Source of the DNA: Acidaminococcaceae bacterium
GTDB lineage: Bacteria > Bacillota > Negativicutes > Acidaminococcales > Acidaminococcaceae
Assembly (NCBI GenBank): GCA_029004715.1
Contig: JAQVYX010000006.1
Location: 1-43,458 of the forward strand
Direction of reading: 5' to 3'
Length of the DNA stretch: 43,458 bases
Part shown: positions 15,988 to 34,462 of the stretch, piece after piece
How the letters are laid out: every line of letters begins with the position of its first letter
How positions within the stretch are numbered: position 1 is the first letter of the stretch
Program-made: the position numbers and the translations under genes
Notes under the pieces: generated by a model
What the model was told of the DNA's origin: nothing
What the model saw: only the letters and a program-made list of their open reading frames with translations
The model's database searches: none

Positions 15988-16016
15988 ATTATATGATAGG
16001 AGGGTTAACCTGTCAA
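15988..16016 (-). promoter_or_regulatory. Consensus sigma-A promoter for rpmH operon
   Basis: On minus, a perfect TTGACA and a perfect TATAAT are separated by exactly 17 bp, 67 bp upstream of the rpmH ATG. This is the best promoter in the window, fitting the high demand for L34. Confidence 0.9.
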
Positions 16017-16124
16017 TAATAAAACACTATTTTTACAATTTAACCTATCTTTTCTACTTATTATACACCTTTTTACGTTACTATTACTTTATATTATAAA
16101 AGAATAAAATAATTAGAACCCAAC

Positions 16125-16290
16125 TTGTCCACAGAGTTACCAGTAACATTTATCCATAAAGTTATGCACAACTGTTGATAACTTAATATCTTTTTTTTAA
16201 TTGTTGATAACTAGCCCAATAGCTGGTATGATGGGGGAGTAGAGTATTTTTTATCCACTAAGTTATGCACAGCTTTAATAGTTATGCACA
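16125..16290. other. oriC, upstream DnaA-box cluster
   Basis: Between rpmH and dnaA lie TTGTCCACA (16125), TTATCCATA (16150), TTATGCACA (16162), minus-strand TTATCAACA at 16173 and 16202, TTATCCACT (16251), and TTATGCACA at 16263 and 16282. All match the DnaA box TTATNCACA closely. They lie just upstream of the dnaA promoter, so they can act both as the first half of a bipartite origin and in DnaA autoregulation. The rest of the 454-bp gap is AT-rich with no gene. Confidence 0.92.
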
Positions 16291-16335
16291 GCTTCAATCA
16301 CTTTTATTATTTTCGCTTTTTTATAACAAATGATG

Positions 16336-16341
16336 TATAAT
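16336..16341 (+). promoter_or_regulatory. Candidate -10 element of the dnaA promoter
   Basis: A perfect TATAAT lies 39 bp upstream of the dnaA ATG, but the -35 region (TTCGCT at 18 bp) is poor. DnaA boxes end 45 bp upstream, consistent with repression by DnaA. Confidence 0.5.
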
Positions 16342-16374
16342 AAAAACCAGTAATAATTTTACAAAGGACGGTTT

Positions 16375-17760
16375 ATGATGAATAATGCTAACATTTCCGA
16401 TATTTGGGAAGGCTTACTCAACTATGTTGAATCCTGCACGGAAGATCCGGGATATGCACGTTGGGTAAAAGAAGCCATGCCACAAAGTGTAACTGGCAAT
16501 GTCTTTGAAATTGTAGTTGAAAAACAATTTATCAAAGATTGGATTGATAATAAATATAAAGCAAATATGGAAAAAATTCTCAGTTCTTTATGTGGCAGAG
16601 AAATGAAGTTACTTATTACAAATTTAAATACTAAAGATGAGGAAGATCGTAGTAATATTATTGACAGACCAATTGTACCTATAATTCCACAAGCAGAAAA
16701 ACAAATTTCTATTTCTTCCCCATTTAAAAATAGTATTGATGATCATCTTATAGGTAAATATGTGTTTGAGAATTTTGTCATCGGCAATTCAAATCGTTTT
16801 GCCCATGCTGCTGCTCTTGCTGTTGCAGAATCACCAGCAAGAGTTTATAATCCACTATTTTTATATAGCGATGCCGGTTTAGGTAAAACACATTTAATGC
16901 ACGCAATTGGTAATCGTATTAAACAAAATCATCCGGAAATGAAAATTTTATATATTTCCAGTGAAACCTTTACTAATGAAATGATTAACTGTATTCAAAA
17001 AAATGCGATGGAAAATTTTCGTAATAAATATCGTAACATTGATGTTCTATTAATTGATGATATTCAATTTCTGCGCAAAAAAGAAAGTACTCAAGAAGAA
17101 TTTTTTCATACCTTTAATGCTTTACGAGATGCAAATAAACAAATTATTATATCAAGTGACCGCAAGCCTTCCGAATTAGATACTTTGGAAGAACGTTTGC
17201 GTTCTCGTTTTTCTTGGGGACTTTCAACTGATATTCAACCTCCGGATTTAGAAACAAGAATGGCTATTTTACGTAACATGGCAGCTTCCGATAATATCGA
17301 ATTGCCAAATGATGTGGTTTTACTGATGGCAAGTGCCATTGAAACAAATATTAGAGAGCTAGAAGGCGCCTATACTAAAGTAATTGCTTACACAAATTTC
17401 TCTAATACACCAATTTCTTTAGAAAACGCTCAAAAAGCATTAACTGAATTTAATATTGGTAATATTAATAAAATAATATCAATTCAAGAAATTCAGCAAC
17501 TGGTATCTACTACTTTCAAAATAAAAATGGATGATTTTTTGGCTAAAAAACGCACTAGAAATGTAGCTTTTCCCAGACAGATAGCTATGTATCTTTGCAG
17601 AGAACTGACAGATTATTCGCTACCAAGAATTGGAGATTTTTTTGGTGGAAGAGATCATACAACTGTCATTCATGCTTGTGAAAAAATATCTAAAGACATG
17701 AAAAAAGATCCTAATTTAGAAAAATCAATCAAAGATATTATAACTCAATTAAAAAAATAA
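16375..17760 (+). CDS. dnaA: Chromosomal replication initiator protein DnaA
   Basis: This 461-residue DnaA has an N-terminal domain I (WEGLLNYVESC...YARWVKEA), a linker, and an AAA+ domain starting FENFVIGNSNRFAHAAALAV. Walker A is LYSDAGLGKTHLMHAIGN, Walker B VLLIDDIQF and the arginine finger region LRSRFSWGL. Domain IV ends with the DNA-binding signature GGRDHTTVIHACEKI. Two consecutive ATG codons open the gene; AAAGGA precedes. It melts the origin and loads DnaB. It is flanked on both sides by DnaA boxes. Confidence 0.98.
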   Translation: MMNNANISDIWEGLLNYVESCTEDPGYARWVKEAMPQSVTGNVFEIVVEKQFIKDWIDNKYKANMEKILSSLCGREMKLLITNLNTKDEEDRSNIIDRPIVPIIPQAEKQISISSPFKNSIDDHLIGKYVFENFVIGNSNRFAHAAALAVAESPARVYNPLFLYSDAGLGKTHLMHAIGNRIKQNHPEMKILYISSETFTNEMINCIQKNAMENFRNKYRNIDVLLIDDIQFLRKKESTQEEFFHTFNALRDANKQIIISSDRKPSELDTLEERLRSRFSWGLSTDIQPPDLETRMAILRNMAASDNIELPNDVVLLMASAIETNIRELEGAYTKVIAYTNFSNTPISLENAQKALTEFNIGNINKIISIQEIQQLVSTTFKIKMDDFLAKKRTRNVAFPRQIAMYLCRELTDYSLPRIGDFFGGRDHTTVIHACEKISKDMKKDPNLEKSIKDIITQLKK

Positions 17761-17761
17761 G

Positions 17762-17975
17762 TTATCCACAGTCTATGGATAACTCTGTTTATAACTTGTG
17801 TCTAAATTTGTTCATAACTCATTTTTTTCTTATCCCTGTTAGTATGTTAATAACTAACTTGATTTTATAAACAAGTTTTAATTTATTTAAAACCAGTACT
17901 CATCGCAGTGTTAAGTACTTTTCCACATATCAACAAAGCCTACTACTACTGCTACTATATTTATTAAATATATAA
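17762..17975. other. oriC, downstream part: DnaA boxes, DnaA-trio and unwinding element
   Basis: Directly after the dnaA stop lie TTATCCACA (17762) and minus TTATCCATA (17774-17782) as an inverted pair, then a weaker minus box at 17809. Close to dnaN come TTTTCCACA (17919) and an abutting box-like ATATCAACA (17927). These are followed by CTACTACTACTGCTACTATA (17940-17959) and the AT-rich TTTATTAAATATATAAG. Read on the other strand the run is 3'-GAT-GAT-GAT-GAC-GAT-GAT, the DnaA-trio pattern known from Bacillus subtilis, where DnaA grips one strand and opens the duplex. The order box, trio, AT-rich DNA matches that model, so this is the probable site of strand opening. Confidence 0.88.
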
Positions 17976-18002
17976 GTAATAGAATTATAAGGAGGACTAC
18001 CA

Positions 18003-19112
18003 ATGAAGTTCGCATGTGAAACGTCAATTTTAGCCAAAAGTATTCAAATAGTAAAAAAAGCTATTTCTTCTAGTCCCAATGCACCTATTTTTTCAGGAAT
18101 ACATTTAATTTTAAAAGGTAATACATTAGAGTTAGTAGCAATGGATTTAAATTTTTATATGAGTGATACTATAAATGTCAATGGAGAAAAAGATGGAGAT
18201 GTTTTAGTTCCTTCTAAATCTTTTTCTGAATTACTGACTAAATTAGATAATGAGGTTATAAGTCTAGAAAAAAATGATAATGAGACAGAAATAATTATAA
18301 TTTCTAACACCGGTAAATATAGTATACCTCTTATGGAAAAAGATGATTTTCCACCTTTTCCTAATTTTGAAGGCGATAGGGTATTAGTTTTTTCTGAAGA
18401 AAAAATAGGAGAATTAATTAGTAAAACAATATATGCTTGTTCTACTGATGAAACAAGACCTCTTTTTACAGGTATATTGTTAGAAAAAAAGAATAAAGAT
18501 GTTACTTTTGTTGGGACTAATACTCATAGATTAGCTATAAAAACAGTAACTTTGGACGAGAATGATAGTGAATTTTCTATGATTATACCTTCTCGTTTAT
18601 TAAGAGAAATTAATACTAATATCGGTAAAGAAGTACCGGAAGATGTAGAAATAAGTTTAAAAAATAAACAAATACAAGTAAAAATAGGGGAAATAAAAAT
18701 AATATCTAGCCTTATCGAAGGATCTTTTCCGGATTATAAGAGGGTAGTTCCTCCTAAATTTGCTACTACTACTGTTTTTAATGCTAAAGCTATGGAAAAA
18801 GCAGTAAAAAGAGTCGCTTTATTTTCTAAAGATGATTATAGTATCGTTAGATTAAATATAGAAGAAGATAAAATAATTTTAACTTCAGGTATTTCTGATT
18901 TAGGTCAGGGCAAAGAAACTGTTGAGTGTACTACTAAAGGTGATGCTCTAAATATTGCTTTTAATTCTAAATATGTCATGGATATTTTAAAATATGCAGG
19001 TTCAGAAGAGGTTGTTATGGAAATGAATAATTCTTTAAGTCCTGTATGTATAAAACCAGTCAGTGAAGAAAATTATATTTATATCGTTACGCCGGTAAGG
19101 GTAATTTTCTAA
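18003..19112 (+). CDS. dnaN: DNA polymerase III beta sliding clamp
   Basis: This 369-residue beta clamp has the three-repeat fold. MKFACETSILAKSIQIVKKAISS opens it, DETRPLFTGILLE and THRLAIKTV lie in the middle domain, and YIYIVTPVRVIF closes it, close to the usual MPVR ending. AAGGAGG lies 7 bp before the ATG. It follows the origin, and recF starts 4 bp after its stop. Codons are strongly A/T-ending compared with gyrB further on. Confidence 0.97.
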   Translation: MKFACETSILAKSIQIVKKAISSSPNAPIFSGIHLILKGNTLELVAMDLNFYMSDTINVNGEKDGDVLVPSKSFSELLTKLDNEVISLEKNDNETEIIIISNTGKYSIPLMEKDDFPPFPNFEGDRVLVFSEEKIGELISKTIYACSTDETRPLFTGILLEKKNKDVTFVGTNTHRLAIKTVTLDENDSEFSMIIPSRLLREINTNIGKEVPEDVEISLKNKQIQVKIGEIKIISSLIEGSFPDYKRVVPPKFATTTVFNAKAMEKAVKRVALFSKDDYSIVRLNIEEDKIILTSGISDLGQGKETVECTTKGDALNIAFNSKYVMDILKYAGSEEVVMEMNNSLSPVCIKPVSEENYIYIVTPVRVIF

Positions 19113-20252: not shown

Positions 20253-21110
20253 ATGAAAGATTTTAACGGTTTAATTTTAAAGATATTAGGTAATAAGAAG
20301 GCTAAGGAAAATTATATTTTGTATTATTTGATAAAAAAATGGCCGGAAATTTGTGGTAATACTATTGCTAAACATTCACAGCCTAAAAAATTAGAGAATA
20401 ATATTCTTTTTATCAATACAGATAATTCTGCTTGGTCTCATAATTTTTTAATGATGCAACGACAGATAATAAATAAGATAAATAGTGTAATACCGTTAGA
20501 AAAAGATAAAAAAAGAACTTTAAAAATTAAGGAAATGAAATTTTATCATGGAAAAATAGAGAATTTTTTTGTGCAGGAAAAGGAAGATGAACCTAAAAAA
20601 GAAATTGAATTAAATTTAGCTGAGGAAAAAAATATAGAGTTTCAAGTTAATAGATTAAAAAACAATGATTTAAAACCTCTTTTTAAAAAAATAATGAAAA
20701 AAGATAAAAAATACAAAAAGACCTTATATTTTTATGATAAACGTTTATGTCCCAGTTGTGGTATACCTTTATTAAAAGGTGAAGAATATTGTGGGCCCTG
20801 TGGAAGAAAAATAAATGCTAAATTAAGAGATAAAATTAGTGAAATATTACATAGTGCTCCTTGGCTTTCATACAACGAGTGTCTTAATTATGTTATTTGT
20901 GATAAAATACTATTTAGTGACGTTAAAGAACGAATGCAAGAATGGTCAATTTCCGAAGCTTTGAAAGAAACAGCAACGGAAAATGAAAAATATTTTGCTG
21001 TTATGTTGAATAAAGAACTTACTCCGGAAAATATTTCTGACGAAATCGTAAAAAAAGCCATTGCTGGTTATAAAAGGAGAAGAACGCGTGTTTTTACATC
21101 TGGGAAATAA
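20253..21110 (+). CDS. dciA: DciA-like (DUF721) protein with C-terminal zinc ribbon
   Basis: This 285-residue protein has a DUF721/DciA domain in its first 95 residues, recognisable by YLIKKWPEICGNTIAKHSQP and NILFINTDNSAWSHNFLMMQ. DciA is the ancestral factor that helps place DnaB helicase on DNA. A charged linker follows (about 100-160), then a four-cysteine zinc ribbon CPSCG...YCGPCG (Cys166, 169, 180, 183), then a helical tail of about 90 residues. The usual DUF721 protein is much shorter, so the C-terminal half is an extension. It starts 3 bp after recF and overlaps remB by 23 bp. Confidence 0.85.
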   Translation: MKDFNGLILKILGNKKAKENYILYYLIKKWPEICGNTIAKHSQPKKLENNILFINTDNSAWSHNFLMMQRQIINKINSVIPLEKDKKRTLKIKEMKFYHGKIENFFVQEKEDEPKKEIELNLAEEKNIEFQVNRLKNNDLKPLFKKIMKKDKKYKKTLYFYDKRLCPSCGIPLLKGEEYCGPCGRKINAKLRDKISEILHSAPWLSYNECLNYVICDKILFSDVKERMQEWSISEALKETATENEKYFAVMLNKELTPENISDEIVKKAIAGYKRRRTRVFTSGK

Positions 21111-31854: not shown

Positions 31855-31898
31855 CTACATTTTGTGGTGGTTGTATATTGTGTATAATGTCCCCAGAC

Positions 31899-32044
31899 TT
31901 ATCCACAGGCAGTATGTTTTGTGCATAACTTTGGTTGATAATCCTTAATAAATGTAAACAATTCGTAAATTAGCAAAAAACTGCGAAAATCATCCCAATG
32001 TTATCCACAGGATTGGGGATAATGTGGATTAAATTTGTGCATAA
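31899..32044. other. Second DnaA-box cluster, outside oriC
   Basis: Within 146 bp lie perfect TTATCCACA on plus at 31899 and 32001, and TTATGCACA on minus at 31920-31928 and 32036-32044. Weaker minus boxes TTATCAACC (31933) and TTATCCCCA (32014) lie between. Each perfect plus box faces a minus box, an arrangement repeated twice. The box types are the same as at oriC. It lies in a non-coding stretch of about 310 bp between rarD and the T-box promoter. No DnaA-trio or second dnaA lies beside it. Confidence 0.85.
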
Positions 32045-32196: not shown

Positions 32197-32224
32197 ACTT
32201 TTAATTTCATAGAAATATTAAAAA

Positions 32225-32469
32225 GTGATGATTGGGACGAAAGACAAAATGTGAACGCACAGAGAGCCGGTGGTTGGTGTAAATCGGTAGGACGCATTTG
32301 TTGAGTAAATCACCCAGGAACTCATCAGCGAAAAGGAATTCCTTAGTAGCATGATGCGTGGCAGACGCGTTAGGTCTGAGCCGATTGTTGGATTGGTGCA
32401 AAGTTATAAAATAGGGTGGTACCGCGTAAACTTTACGCCCCTGTATACGTTATATGTATACAGGGGCGT
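32225..32469 (+). promoter_or_regulatory. T-box riboswitch (probable isoleucine specifier AUC)
   Basis: The leader has the stem I landmarks (AGAGAGCCGGTGGTTGGTG) and the T-box sequence AGGGTGGTACCGCG at 32413-32426. An antiterminator helix (AAAGTT / AACTTT) competes with the terminator at 32435-32469 (ACGCCCCTGTATAC stem followed by a T-run). AAATGTG pairs with CGCATTT in stem I. The specifier is most likely ATC in GTAAATCACCC, followed by A and then CCC that pairs with GGG on the other arm, so it would sense uncharged tRNA-Ile. That codon call is by eye; GTT and TTG nearby are alternatives. Confidence 0.9.
32435..32469 (+). terminator. Regulated terminator of the T-box
   Basis: A perfect 14-bp GC-rich stem is followed by TTTTTATTTATTTTTTT. 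It forms when tRNA is charged and switches off ilv expression. Confidence 0.93.
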
Positions 32470-32776: not shown

Positions 32777-34462
32777 ATGAAATTAAGTGGAGCTCAAGCA
32801 ATAATAAAAATTTTAGAAGAGCATGGCGTAAATACAGTTTTTGGTTATCCTGGAGGACAGGTTATTCCTTTGTATGATGCTTTGTATGATAGTAAGCTAC
32901 ATAATGTTTTAACAGTACATGAACAGGGAGCTGTTCATGCTGCTGATGCTTATGCTAGAGTTAGCGGGCGAACAGGAGTATGTATTGCTACCTCAGGTCC
33001 AGGGGCAACTAATATAGTTACAGGTCTTGCTACAGCATACTTAGATTCAGTACCTTTAGTAGCTATTACAGGACAAGTAGCAGTAAATCAGCTGGGGAGA
33101 GATTCCTTTCAAGAGATTGACATTGTTGGTGTTACAATTCCTATTACTAAGCATAATGTTTTAGTGCGTGAGGCTAAGGAACTTTTGCCGGCACTGCGCA
33201 CTGCTTTTAAAATTGCTTGCAGTGGACGGCCAGGACCGGTATTGGTTGATATTCCCAGTAGTATTCAAACGGAAGAGTTGGAATGGACAGAACCGGAAAA
33301 TGCCAGTGAGGATCATAAAGAAAAAAATACTAATAAACAGCGTCTTGAGAAACTTTTGGAAGCAGCTTCGGTGACTATTAATAATGCACAAAGGCCTGTG
33401 CTTCTAGTTGGAGGCGGAACAGTATTAGGTAATGCAACCGCAGAAGTTATAGAGTTTGCTCGTAAAACAGGAATGCCTGTAGTTAACACTCTTATGGCTA
33501 TAGGTGCGTTCCCAGGTAGTGATTCACAAGCACTCGGGCTTACCGGAATGCATGGTCATGTTGGTGCTAATCTTGCCGTAACTAATGCTGATGTATTGGT
33601 AGTGGCAGGTAGTAGGTTTAGTGAACGTATTACGGGAGACCGTAATAGATATGTGGGCAAGAAAACTATTATTCAACTGGATATAGATCCTTCGGAAGTA
33701 GATAAAAATATAGTGTCGTCTCTGCCTTTAGTAGGGGATATTAAAGAGACGTTAAAGCTTTTAAATCCTCGCGTTAAAAAACTCGATATCAAACCTTGGT
33801 GGGAATCAATTAAGGCTTGGGAAGAGACTGAAGGACACGAATTAGAGAAAGGAGATAAATTAACAGCTCCATGGATAATGAAGGAACTAAATAGACAATT
33901 TAATAGAAAAGAGACTATTTTTGTAACAGATGTTGGCCAAAATCAAATGTGGGCAGCTCAGCATTTGGTGATAGATAATCCACGCCATTTTGTTACTTCG
34001 GGTGGGTGTGGAACCATGGGTTTTGGTGTCCCTGGTGCTTTAGGCGCTAAGCTTGCCAGTCCTGACGCTCAGGTAATACAAATTGGCGGGGATGGCGGGT
34101 TTAAAATGACGGGGATGGAATTACATACTGCCTGTCGGGAAAAAACACCTTTTCTTAGTATCGTAATTAATAATAGTTGTCTAGGGATGGTACGCCAATG
34201 GCAACAGGTTTTTTACAATAAAAGGTATTCTTCCACTTTATTAAGCGAATTTGACTTTATTGCTTTTGCCCAGTCTTGTGGGGCCGAAGGCGTACAAGTA
34301 AAAACCTGCGAGGAATTCAAAGAAGCCTTAATTTTAGCTGGGAAAGTGCAAAAAGCAGGGAAGCCTTTTCTCATTGAAACGGTAATTAGTCAAGCAGATT
34401 TGGTTTTGCCTATGGTTGCTCCTGGATCTGTAATCAATGAGTTTGTGGATCCGGAAAAATAA
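32777..34462 (+). CDS. ilvB: Acetolactate synthase large subunit
   Basis: This 561-residue thiamine diphosphate enzyme makes 2-acetolactate or 2-aceto-2-hydroxybutyrate, the first common step to valine, leucine and isoleucine. It contains GVNTVFGYPGGQVIPLYDAL, the catalytic glutamate in VHEQGAVHAADAYAR (Glu49), SGPGATNIVTGLATAYLDSVP and PVLVDIPS. The ThDP/Mg motif is IGGDGGFKMTGMELHTA...INNSCLGMVRQWQ. No other ilv gene follows; a large hairpin closes the unit. Control is by the T-box upstream. Confidence 0.95.
   Translation: MKLSGAQAIIKILEEHGVNTVFGYPGGQVIPLYDALYDSKLHNVLTVHEQGAVHAADAYARVSGRTGVCIATSGPGATNIVTGLATAYLDSVPLVAITGQVAVNQLGRDSFQEIDIVGVTIPITKHNVLVREAKELLPALRTAFKIACSGRPGPVLVDIPSSIQTEELEWTEPENASEDHKEKNTNKQRLEKLLEAASVTINNAQRPVLLVGGGTVLGNATAEVIEFARKTGMPVVNTLMAIGAFPGSDSQALGLTGMHGHVGANLAVTNADVLVVAGSRFSERITGDRNRYVGKKTIIQLDIDPSEVDKNIVSSLPLVGDIKETLKLLNPRVKKLDIKPWWESIKAWEETEGHELEKGDKLTAPWIMKELNRQFNRKETIFVTDVGQNQMWAAQHLVIDNPRHFVTSGGCGTMGFGVPGALGAKLASPDAQVIQIGGDGGFKMTGMELHTACREKTPFLSIVINNSCLGMVRQWQQVFYNKRYSSTLLSEFDFIAFAQSCGAEGVQVKTCEEFKEALILAGKVQKAGKPFLIETVISQADLVLPMVAPGSVINEFVDPEK

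Follow-up and report, generated by a model that had tools for sequence, protein, structure and literature searches.

The way in which the exact place of strand opening is marked in different bacteria is still debated, and the locus considered here raises this question twice: does the gap between dnaA and dnaN of an Acidaminococcaceae bacterium harbor the unwinding element of its origin, and in which code is such an element written here and in related genomes? A middle adenine is what defines a DnaA-trio in the published search (PMC8287927), and NAN is the form that a 2026 review continues to give (PMC13220808). In the main genome survey, the middle-adenine mark was not found in 15% of origins (PMC8287927). 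The survey authors suspected the existence of trios lacking the middle adenine and, at a later time, the ability of cytosine to serve in its place (PMC8287927, PMC10721633).

The window is the whole stretch of DNA that was analyzed, 43,458 nucleotides of contig JAQVYX010000006.1 (assembly GCA_029004715.1, 2.0 Mb in 198 contigs). Judging by sequence comparison, its dnaA–dnaN gap would be the unwinding half of oriC, a B. subtilis-type Basal Unwinding System (BUS) where a DnaA oligomer on six trios opens the strands (rough probability 0.87). Taken as such, the window copy is an ordinary BUS; what is new is the cytosine-centered code of its relatives.

Setting and Architecture of the Origin

The window displays the usual gene order of an origin, i.e., rnpA, dnaA (16375–17760, plus strand; TIGR00362, E 5e-166), dnaN encoding the sliding clamp (18003–19112, plus strand; TIGR00663, E 1.9e-83), a recF-like gene, the DciA gene (20253–21110), gyrB, and gyrA. 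The GC-skew minimum, proposed as a check in the earlier note, falls at dnaA/dnaN: the cumulative skew, computed on the window only, reaches its minimum in 16001–18000 and rises afterwards.

The dnaA–dnaN gap is 242 bases long. Directly past the dnaA stop, it holds a perfect DnaA box, TTATCCACA (17762–17770, plus strand), and an inverted box with one mismatch, TTATCCATA (17774–17782, minus strand). The gap ends, as had been described before, with a DnaA box and a box-like sequence followed by AT-rich DNA. The distal box TTTTCCACA (17919–17927, plus strand), which has one mismatch to TTATCCACA, is the counterpart of B. subtilis box 6, and the proximal box ATATCAACA (17927–17935, plus strand), with two mismatches, that of box 7; the two share one base (17927). 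Next come the 4-nt spacer AAGC (17936–17939), of the same length as the GC-rich spacer of the B. subtilis BUS and with G+C making up half of it (GSCC-like in most relatives), and six DnaA-trios on the minus strand (17940–17957). The AT-rich stretch past the trios (17958–17989), running up to the dnaN ribosome site in a layout matching that of relatives, is predicted from its sequence to open next.

Such an arrangement is hardly a matter of chance. Three boxes with at most one mismatch are found in 17761–18002, a number reached in 1 of 2000 shuffles. CTACTACTACTGCTACTATA (17940–17959) is the sole site of the window where five of six successive triplets read CTA; the best sites of 40 first-order Markov windows of equal length contained two to four CTA triplets, never five, and 3000 simulated 242-base gaps never gave more than three.

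The published search rule demands three or more 3'-NAN-5' trios no farther than 16 bp from a DnaA box with at most two mismatches (PMC8287927). Here, the box at 17919–17927 (one mismatch) lies 12 bp from trio 1 of six NAN trios, and a tandem co-oriented second box, ATATCAACA, is present where relatives possess a box as well. The earlier note was right in reading six trios on the opposite strand with one GAC among them: the run is 3'-GAT GAT GAT GAC GAT GAT-5' (top strand CTA CTA CTA CTG CTA CTA). It treated this GAC as a deviation from the trio rule; the published rule, however, fixes the middle A only. A 3'-GAC-5' trio is also a part of a working unwinding run in H. pylori (PMC8235120).

Conservation of the Layout in Relatives

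The gap before dnaN was compared in 152 genomes, including 52 of the family and 100 others of the class (Negativicutes), the latter being the best-scoring listed of 288 genomes with dnaN rather than a random draw. In the family, 6 of 59 genomes gave no dnaN match, and one (G039) had no gap on its contig. The register was fixed from the tandem boxes alone, the triplets not being looked at. In the sole other genus member sampled (G020), a contig end truncates dnaA, and dnaN gave no match; hence, the run was compared only outside the genus.

Of the 152 gaps, 149 kept the limits on box score and position, the exceptions being G104, G078, and G179. In-register gaps numbered 141, including 51 of the 52 family gaps. 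The 141 include G041 and G069, although they look like wrong calls. A register call required three or more of the six triplets to end in A, which left eight gaps off register, those of G027, G149, G120, G259, G090, G107, G065, and G262. Inspection by eye suggests that the trios are displaced by one to a few bases in most of them; G107 and G090 look all-adenine, and cytosine centers are seen in G027, G149, G120, and G065.

The 141 in-register origins share the order of box, box (starts 8 or 9 bp apart), four bases, six triplets, and AT-rich DNA. The 4-nt spacer remains constant whether the box starts differ by 8 or 9 bp. Since the triplets thus stay in step with the second box as the box spacing changes, the weak ATATCAACA of the window is a real part of the element. 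According to the earlier note, a lack of conservation of the run in relatives would speak against its reading; what was found is that the run is conserved, together with the boxes anchoring it, the spacing, and the DnaA contact residues.

Upstream Boxes and the Bipartite Origin

The first half of the putative bipartite origin is a cluster of eight boxes with at most one mismatch (16125–16290). The shuffle mean for the region 16101–16374, which contains these eight boxes, is 0.09, and none of 2000 shuffles reached the observed number. Together with the three boxes of the gap, the cluster places boxes on either side of dnaA. Within 450 bp upstream of dnaA, the eight nearby genomes read hold three to six boxes at like spacing (G020, 5; G029, 5; G030, 6; G042, 3; G021, 5; G006, 6; G003, 5; G002, 6), so the near genera, counting the window (8), show three to eight boxes in all nine genomes read. 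Elsewhere in the family, the number is zero to three in 28 of 28 genomes read. Eight of these were read at 450 bp (none in G031, G014, G018, and G019; 2 in G025 and G057; 3 in G036; 1 in G026) and 20 at 400 bp; in the latter, the gap itself holds three to nine boxes. The count leaves out G001, G004, G005, and G009, where the stretch missed the dnaA start. Hence, the bipartite origin claimed previously stands for this genome and the near genera but does not extend to the rest of the family: the upstream part is a local feature, and the BUS is the constant one.

These counts bear on the view that the strands open upstream of dnaA, the gap being merely an accessory DnaA site. It draws on the prevalence of upstream boxes in the window (eight vs. 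three in the gap), but much of the family lacks the upstream cluster and nonetheless retains the BUS, and the best CTA run of the window is in the gap; we consider this view very improbable. About as improbable is a run that is a part of the dnaN leader, arisen by chance or as a transcriptional repeat with no origin function: it does lie 46–63 bases upstream of the dnaN start, immediately in front of the ribosome site, but its register is tied to the boxes and kept in 27 families while the surrounding leader changes, and chance is excluded by the simulations.

A third dense DnaA-box cluster (31879–32044; seven boxes, two of them perfect; 0 of 2000 shuffles) is situated 14 kb from oriC, between a rarD-like gene and a T-box leader. 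Most of its boxes are in place in G020 (81% identity) and G030 (70%), and its exact four-box core was found in 3 of 379 class genomes, i.e., in these two and the window. This cluster may serve as a reservoir of DnaA or as a DnaA-reloading site. The T-box leader (32219–32445; RF00230, 100.7 bits) precedes the gene of the acetolactate synthase large subunit (32777–34462).

DnaA Contacts and Proposed Working of the Origin

A 2023 cryo-EM paper on B. subtilis DnaA, where six trios are held by seven DnaA molecules, named the residues contacting the trios and the backbone (PMC10721633). In the alignment with this protein (PDB 8btg), the window DnaA is identical at nine of nine such residues (E183, N187, I190, I193, N196, R202, K222, E223, and E228 in B. 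subtilis numbering). Since the layout is kept as well, the element of the window can be regarded as a BUS which would operate as in B. subtilis (PMC10721633).

Two DnaA molecules would bind the tandem boxes at 17919–17935, and a DnaA-ATP oligomer would extend from them along the minus strand across the six trios (17940–17957). Each adjacent DnaA pair would capture two bases per trio, keeping the strand off its partner, and the opening would spread into the AT-rich DNA as far as about 17989. DnaA most likely comes to the site from the boxes located upstream of dnaA and at 17762–17782. While binding, capture, and melting are all inferred here from sequence, strand opening may soundly be placed at about 17940–17975.

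Residue 202 varies within the family. In the 11 genomes with Q202, the first trio base on the minus strand is A in 34 of 66 trios; in the 31 genomes with R202, it is A in 33 of 186. This link is a lead only, confounded with descent (mainly two genera).

The Middle Base of the Trios in Negativicutes

The canonical code turned out to be rare in the class. All six trios obey 3'-NAN-5' in 4 of the 141 origins (the window, i.e., G000, as well as G030, G265, and G199), as compared with 116 having a complete six-trio run under N(A/C)N, and at least one cytosine-centered trio is present in 125. Across the 846 trios (141 × 6), the central base on the trio strand is A in 610, C in 201, T in 28, and G in 7. 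Middle-base changes are mostly to C, with 7 transitions and 229 transversions, whereas the changes at the first (139/40) and third (56/21) trio positions are mainly transitions. The corresponding Fisher p is 3e-71 for the raw counts and 2.5e-44 for the 90 distinct runs, both values ignoring descent. When one genome per family was drawn, C exceeded T and G together in 1000 of 1000 draws over 27 families, and 25 of the 27 contain at least one cytosine-centered genome. In three families read apart (f7, f27, and f34), dnaN was present in 47 of the 49 genomes searched; of the 22 origins in register, 16 displayed a cytosine center.

The place of the cytosine is also conserved. It is most often central at trios 5 and 4 (81 and 70 genomes, respectively), less often at trios 2 (20), 3 (17), and 6 (10), and at trio 1 in three genomes only. 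In the 48 genomes outside the two best-sampled families (f1 and f14), the center of trio 5 is C in 46, G in 2, and A in none; trio 6 keeps a central A in 47 of them, so the cytosine lies inside the run and not at its end. In f14, a C center occurs at trio 4 in 34 of 42 genomes and at trio 5 in 19 of 42; in f1, it occurs at trio 4 in 34 of 51. The third base of trio 5 is variable, too (top strand A in 99 and G in 39 of 141); hence, this triplet could be a spacer with another function instead of a captured trio.

Outside the class, 21 in-register Bacilli (of 23 taken from the genome_contigs sample) yielded 126 trios with middle A in 117, T in 5, C in 4, and G in none, three of the four C centers being at trio 6. 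The 41 in-register origins outside the class gave A 218, C 17, T 7, and G 4, a count which leaves out five loci taken as class members (for L053, this assignment is a guess). Therefore, cytosine is a widely favored substitute, but among the genomes sampled, this class alone has it often and at a set position.

The window is one substitution away from this pattern: its trio 4 reads CTG vs. CGG in the neighboring G021 and G042, i.e., 3'-GAC-5' vs. 3'-GCC-5'. Thus, the GAC is best read as a formerly cytosine-centered trio where the middle base turned to A and the third base was left behind. The direction from C to A is inferred from the wide occurrence of C at trio 4 rather than reconstructed.

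CpG or methylation was considered as a cause of the central C and rejected: 36 of the 201 such trios read TG or AG on top, not CG.

In 6 of 6 genomes of one genus (code g6), the trio strand has T at the center of an odd triplet, the top strand reading TAA or CAA, which the restriction to A or C does not explain. This triplet is at trio 3 or 4 (G014–G019; e.g., L093, region 1361–1500), and the DnaA of the genus carries the changes I190V, N196R, R202K, and K222R. A matched change of the trio code and the DnaA reading it is possible there, as far as the sequences indicate.

Origins with Only Cytosine-Centered Trios

Three genomes of one genus (code g17; G049, G051, and G053, loci L126, L128, and L125) have all six trios centered on cytosine. 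In the DnaN tree, these genomes group as a single clade with a support of 100. After the boxes and the 4-nt spacer, the top strand reads TGA TGA TGA TGA CGA TGA in G049, TGA six times over in G051, and TGA TGA CGA TGA TGA TGA in G053. Their DnaA keeps E183, N187, I190, I193, K222, and E228 and differs at positions 196 (G/A), 202 (Q), and 223 (I/T).

A register shift (CTG ATG ATG...) restoring the middle A in these genomes was tried and rejected. It cuts the fixed 4-nt spacer to three bases and turns the differences in trio 5 of G049 and trio 3 of G053 into A to G at the essential middle base. With the box-anchored register, the two A-to-G differences fall at the first base instead, a position at which A and G are both common.

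A search for the all-cytosine pattern in 380 class genomes gave a match in six. Counting them as six origins was rejected: only G049, G051, and G053 are shown to have it before dnaN, the matches in G072 and G292 are on contigs other than those carrying their dnaN, and the position relative to dnaN of the match in G369 was outside the count.

Possible Reasons for a Central Cytosine

In B. subtilis, an engineered central C supports strand separation in vitro about as well as A and, in vivo, gives better growth than G or T (PMC10721633). N187 is said to read the amino group common to A and C (PMC10721633). Judging from the aligned runs, the rule for the middle trio base in the class would be adenine or cytosine, i.e., the two bases with the amino group read by the pocket. 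No report of natural cytosine-centered trios as a conserved state was found in the DnaA-trio and Negativicutes oriC literature consulted.

In B. subtilis, DnaD recognizes TnnT repeats located across from the trios, on the complementary strand (PMC10201434); such recognition would hold the central top-strand T in place. The DnaD-type domain PF07261 gave no match in the window genome, in a search whose control finds the B. subtilis DnaD, and none in 52 of 60 class genomes, so this hold may be gone. At the same time, five of the eight class genomes with a match (G003, G058, G066, G068, and G089) have cytosine-centered trios nonetheless. Two forces might operate jointly: a pocket accepting either A or C and the loss of the DnaD hold on the middle T. 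On this basis, we suggest, as an evenly balanced proposal, that the Negativicutes code is 3'-purine, A or C, any base-5' rather than NAN; that the cytosine-centered trio 4 or 5 belongs to the conserved working parts of the origin, with one lineage being all-cytosine; that this is allowed by the absence of a DnaD reading the opposite-strand T; and that the window became all-adenine probably by return.

Alternatively, the G:C pair at trio 4 or 5 of the relatives could, as a stable pair within the region that opens, act as a brake only, the strand carrying the C being irrelevant. Its fixed place (trio 5 in 46 of the 48 genomes outside f1 and f14) is what one would expect of a brake, as is the presence of one or more G or C bases at trio positions 2 or 3 in 132 of the 141 origins. 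Yet a trio-strand G would suit a brake no less than C, while the counts are 201 C vs. 7 G, and it does not alone account for the three genomes with six of six cytosine centers. We regard this explanation as rather unlikely, and it is a guess that a brake on opening makes C favor trio 4 or 5; the two readings may also be mixed, the brake being one that capture tolerates. A poorer candidate is the top-strand G being read by another protein, e.g., a helicase loader: the TnnT reading by DnaD offers a precedent (PMC10201434), but PF07261 is scarce in the class, and the G shifts between trios 4 and 5 among families with varying neighbors, unlike a fixed protein site.

If cytosine indeed shares the reading pocket with adenine, as we propose, the trio code read by DnaA is looser than the textbook one, with C replacing A at a fixed place in the relatives. 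Natural origins with a cytosine-centered trio in a set position number more than 100, and in three of them all the trios are of this kind; these origins make the suspicion of the survey authors testable and indicate how the trio search rule can be mended.

Comparison with Known Systems

The element of the window resembles the B. subtilis BUS in its two co-oriented boxes, 4-nt spacer, six trios on the matching strand, AT-rich DNA, location in the dnaA–dnaN gap, and identical DnaA contact residues. It differs in the boxes overlapping by one base, the GAC at trio 4, and a genome where no DnaD-type loader domain was found; moreover, its relatives use cytosine-centered trios. With oriC2 of H. pylori, it shares the trio run after a box, the single 3'-GAC-5' trio, and the bipartite origin (PMC8235120). 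The unwinding of the H. pylori origin has been shown by experiment; this origin has another DnaA-box consensus, and the part of that paper drawn upon here reports no cytosine centers (PMC8235120).

The closest parallel to the relatives of the window is engineered: in the A-to-C trio mutants of B. subtilis, the base change and its place in the trio match those found in nature (PMC10721633). The two differ in the trios concerned, since the engineered change was made at trio 1 in vitro and at trios 1–3 in vivo (PMC10721633), whereas the natural one is found mostly at trios 4–5 or, in one clade, at all six.
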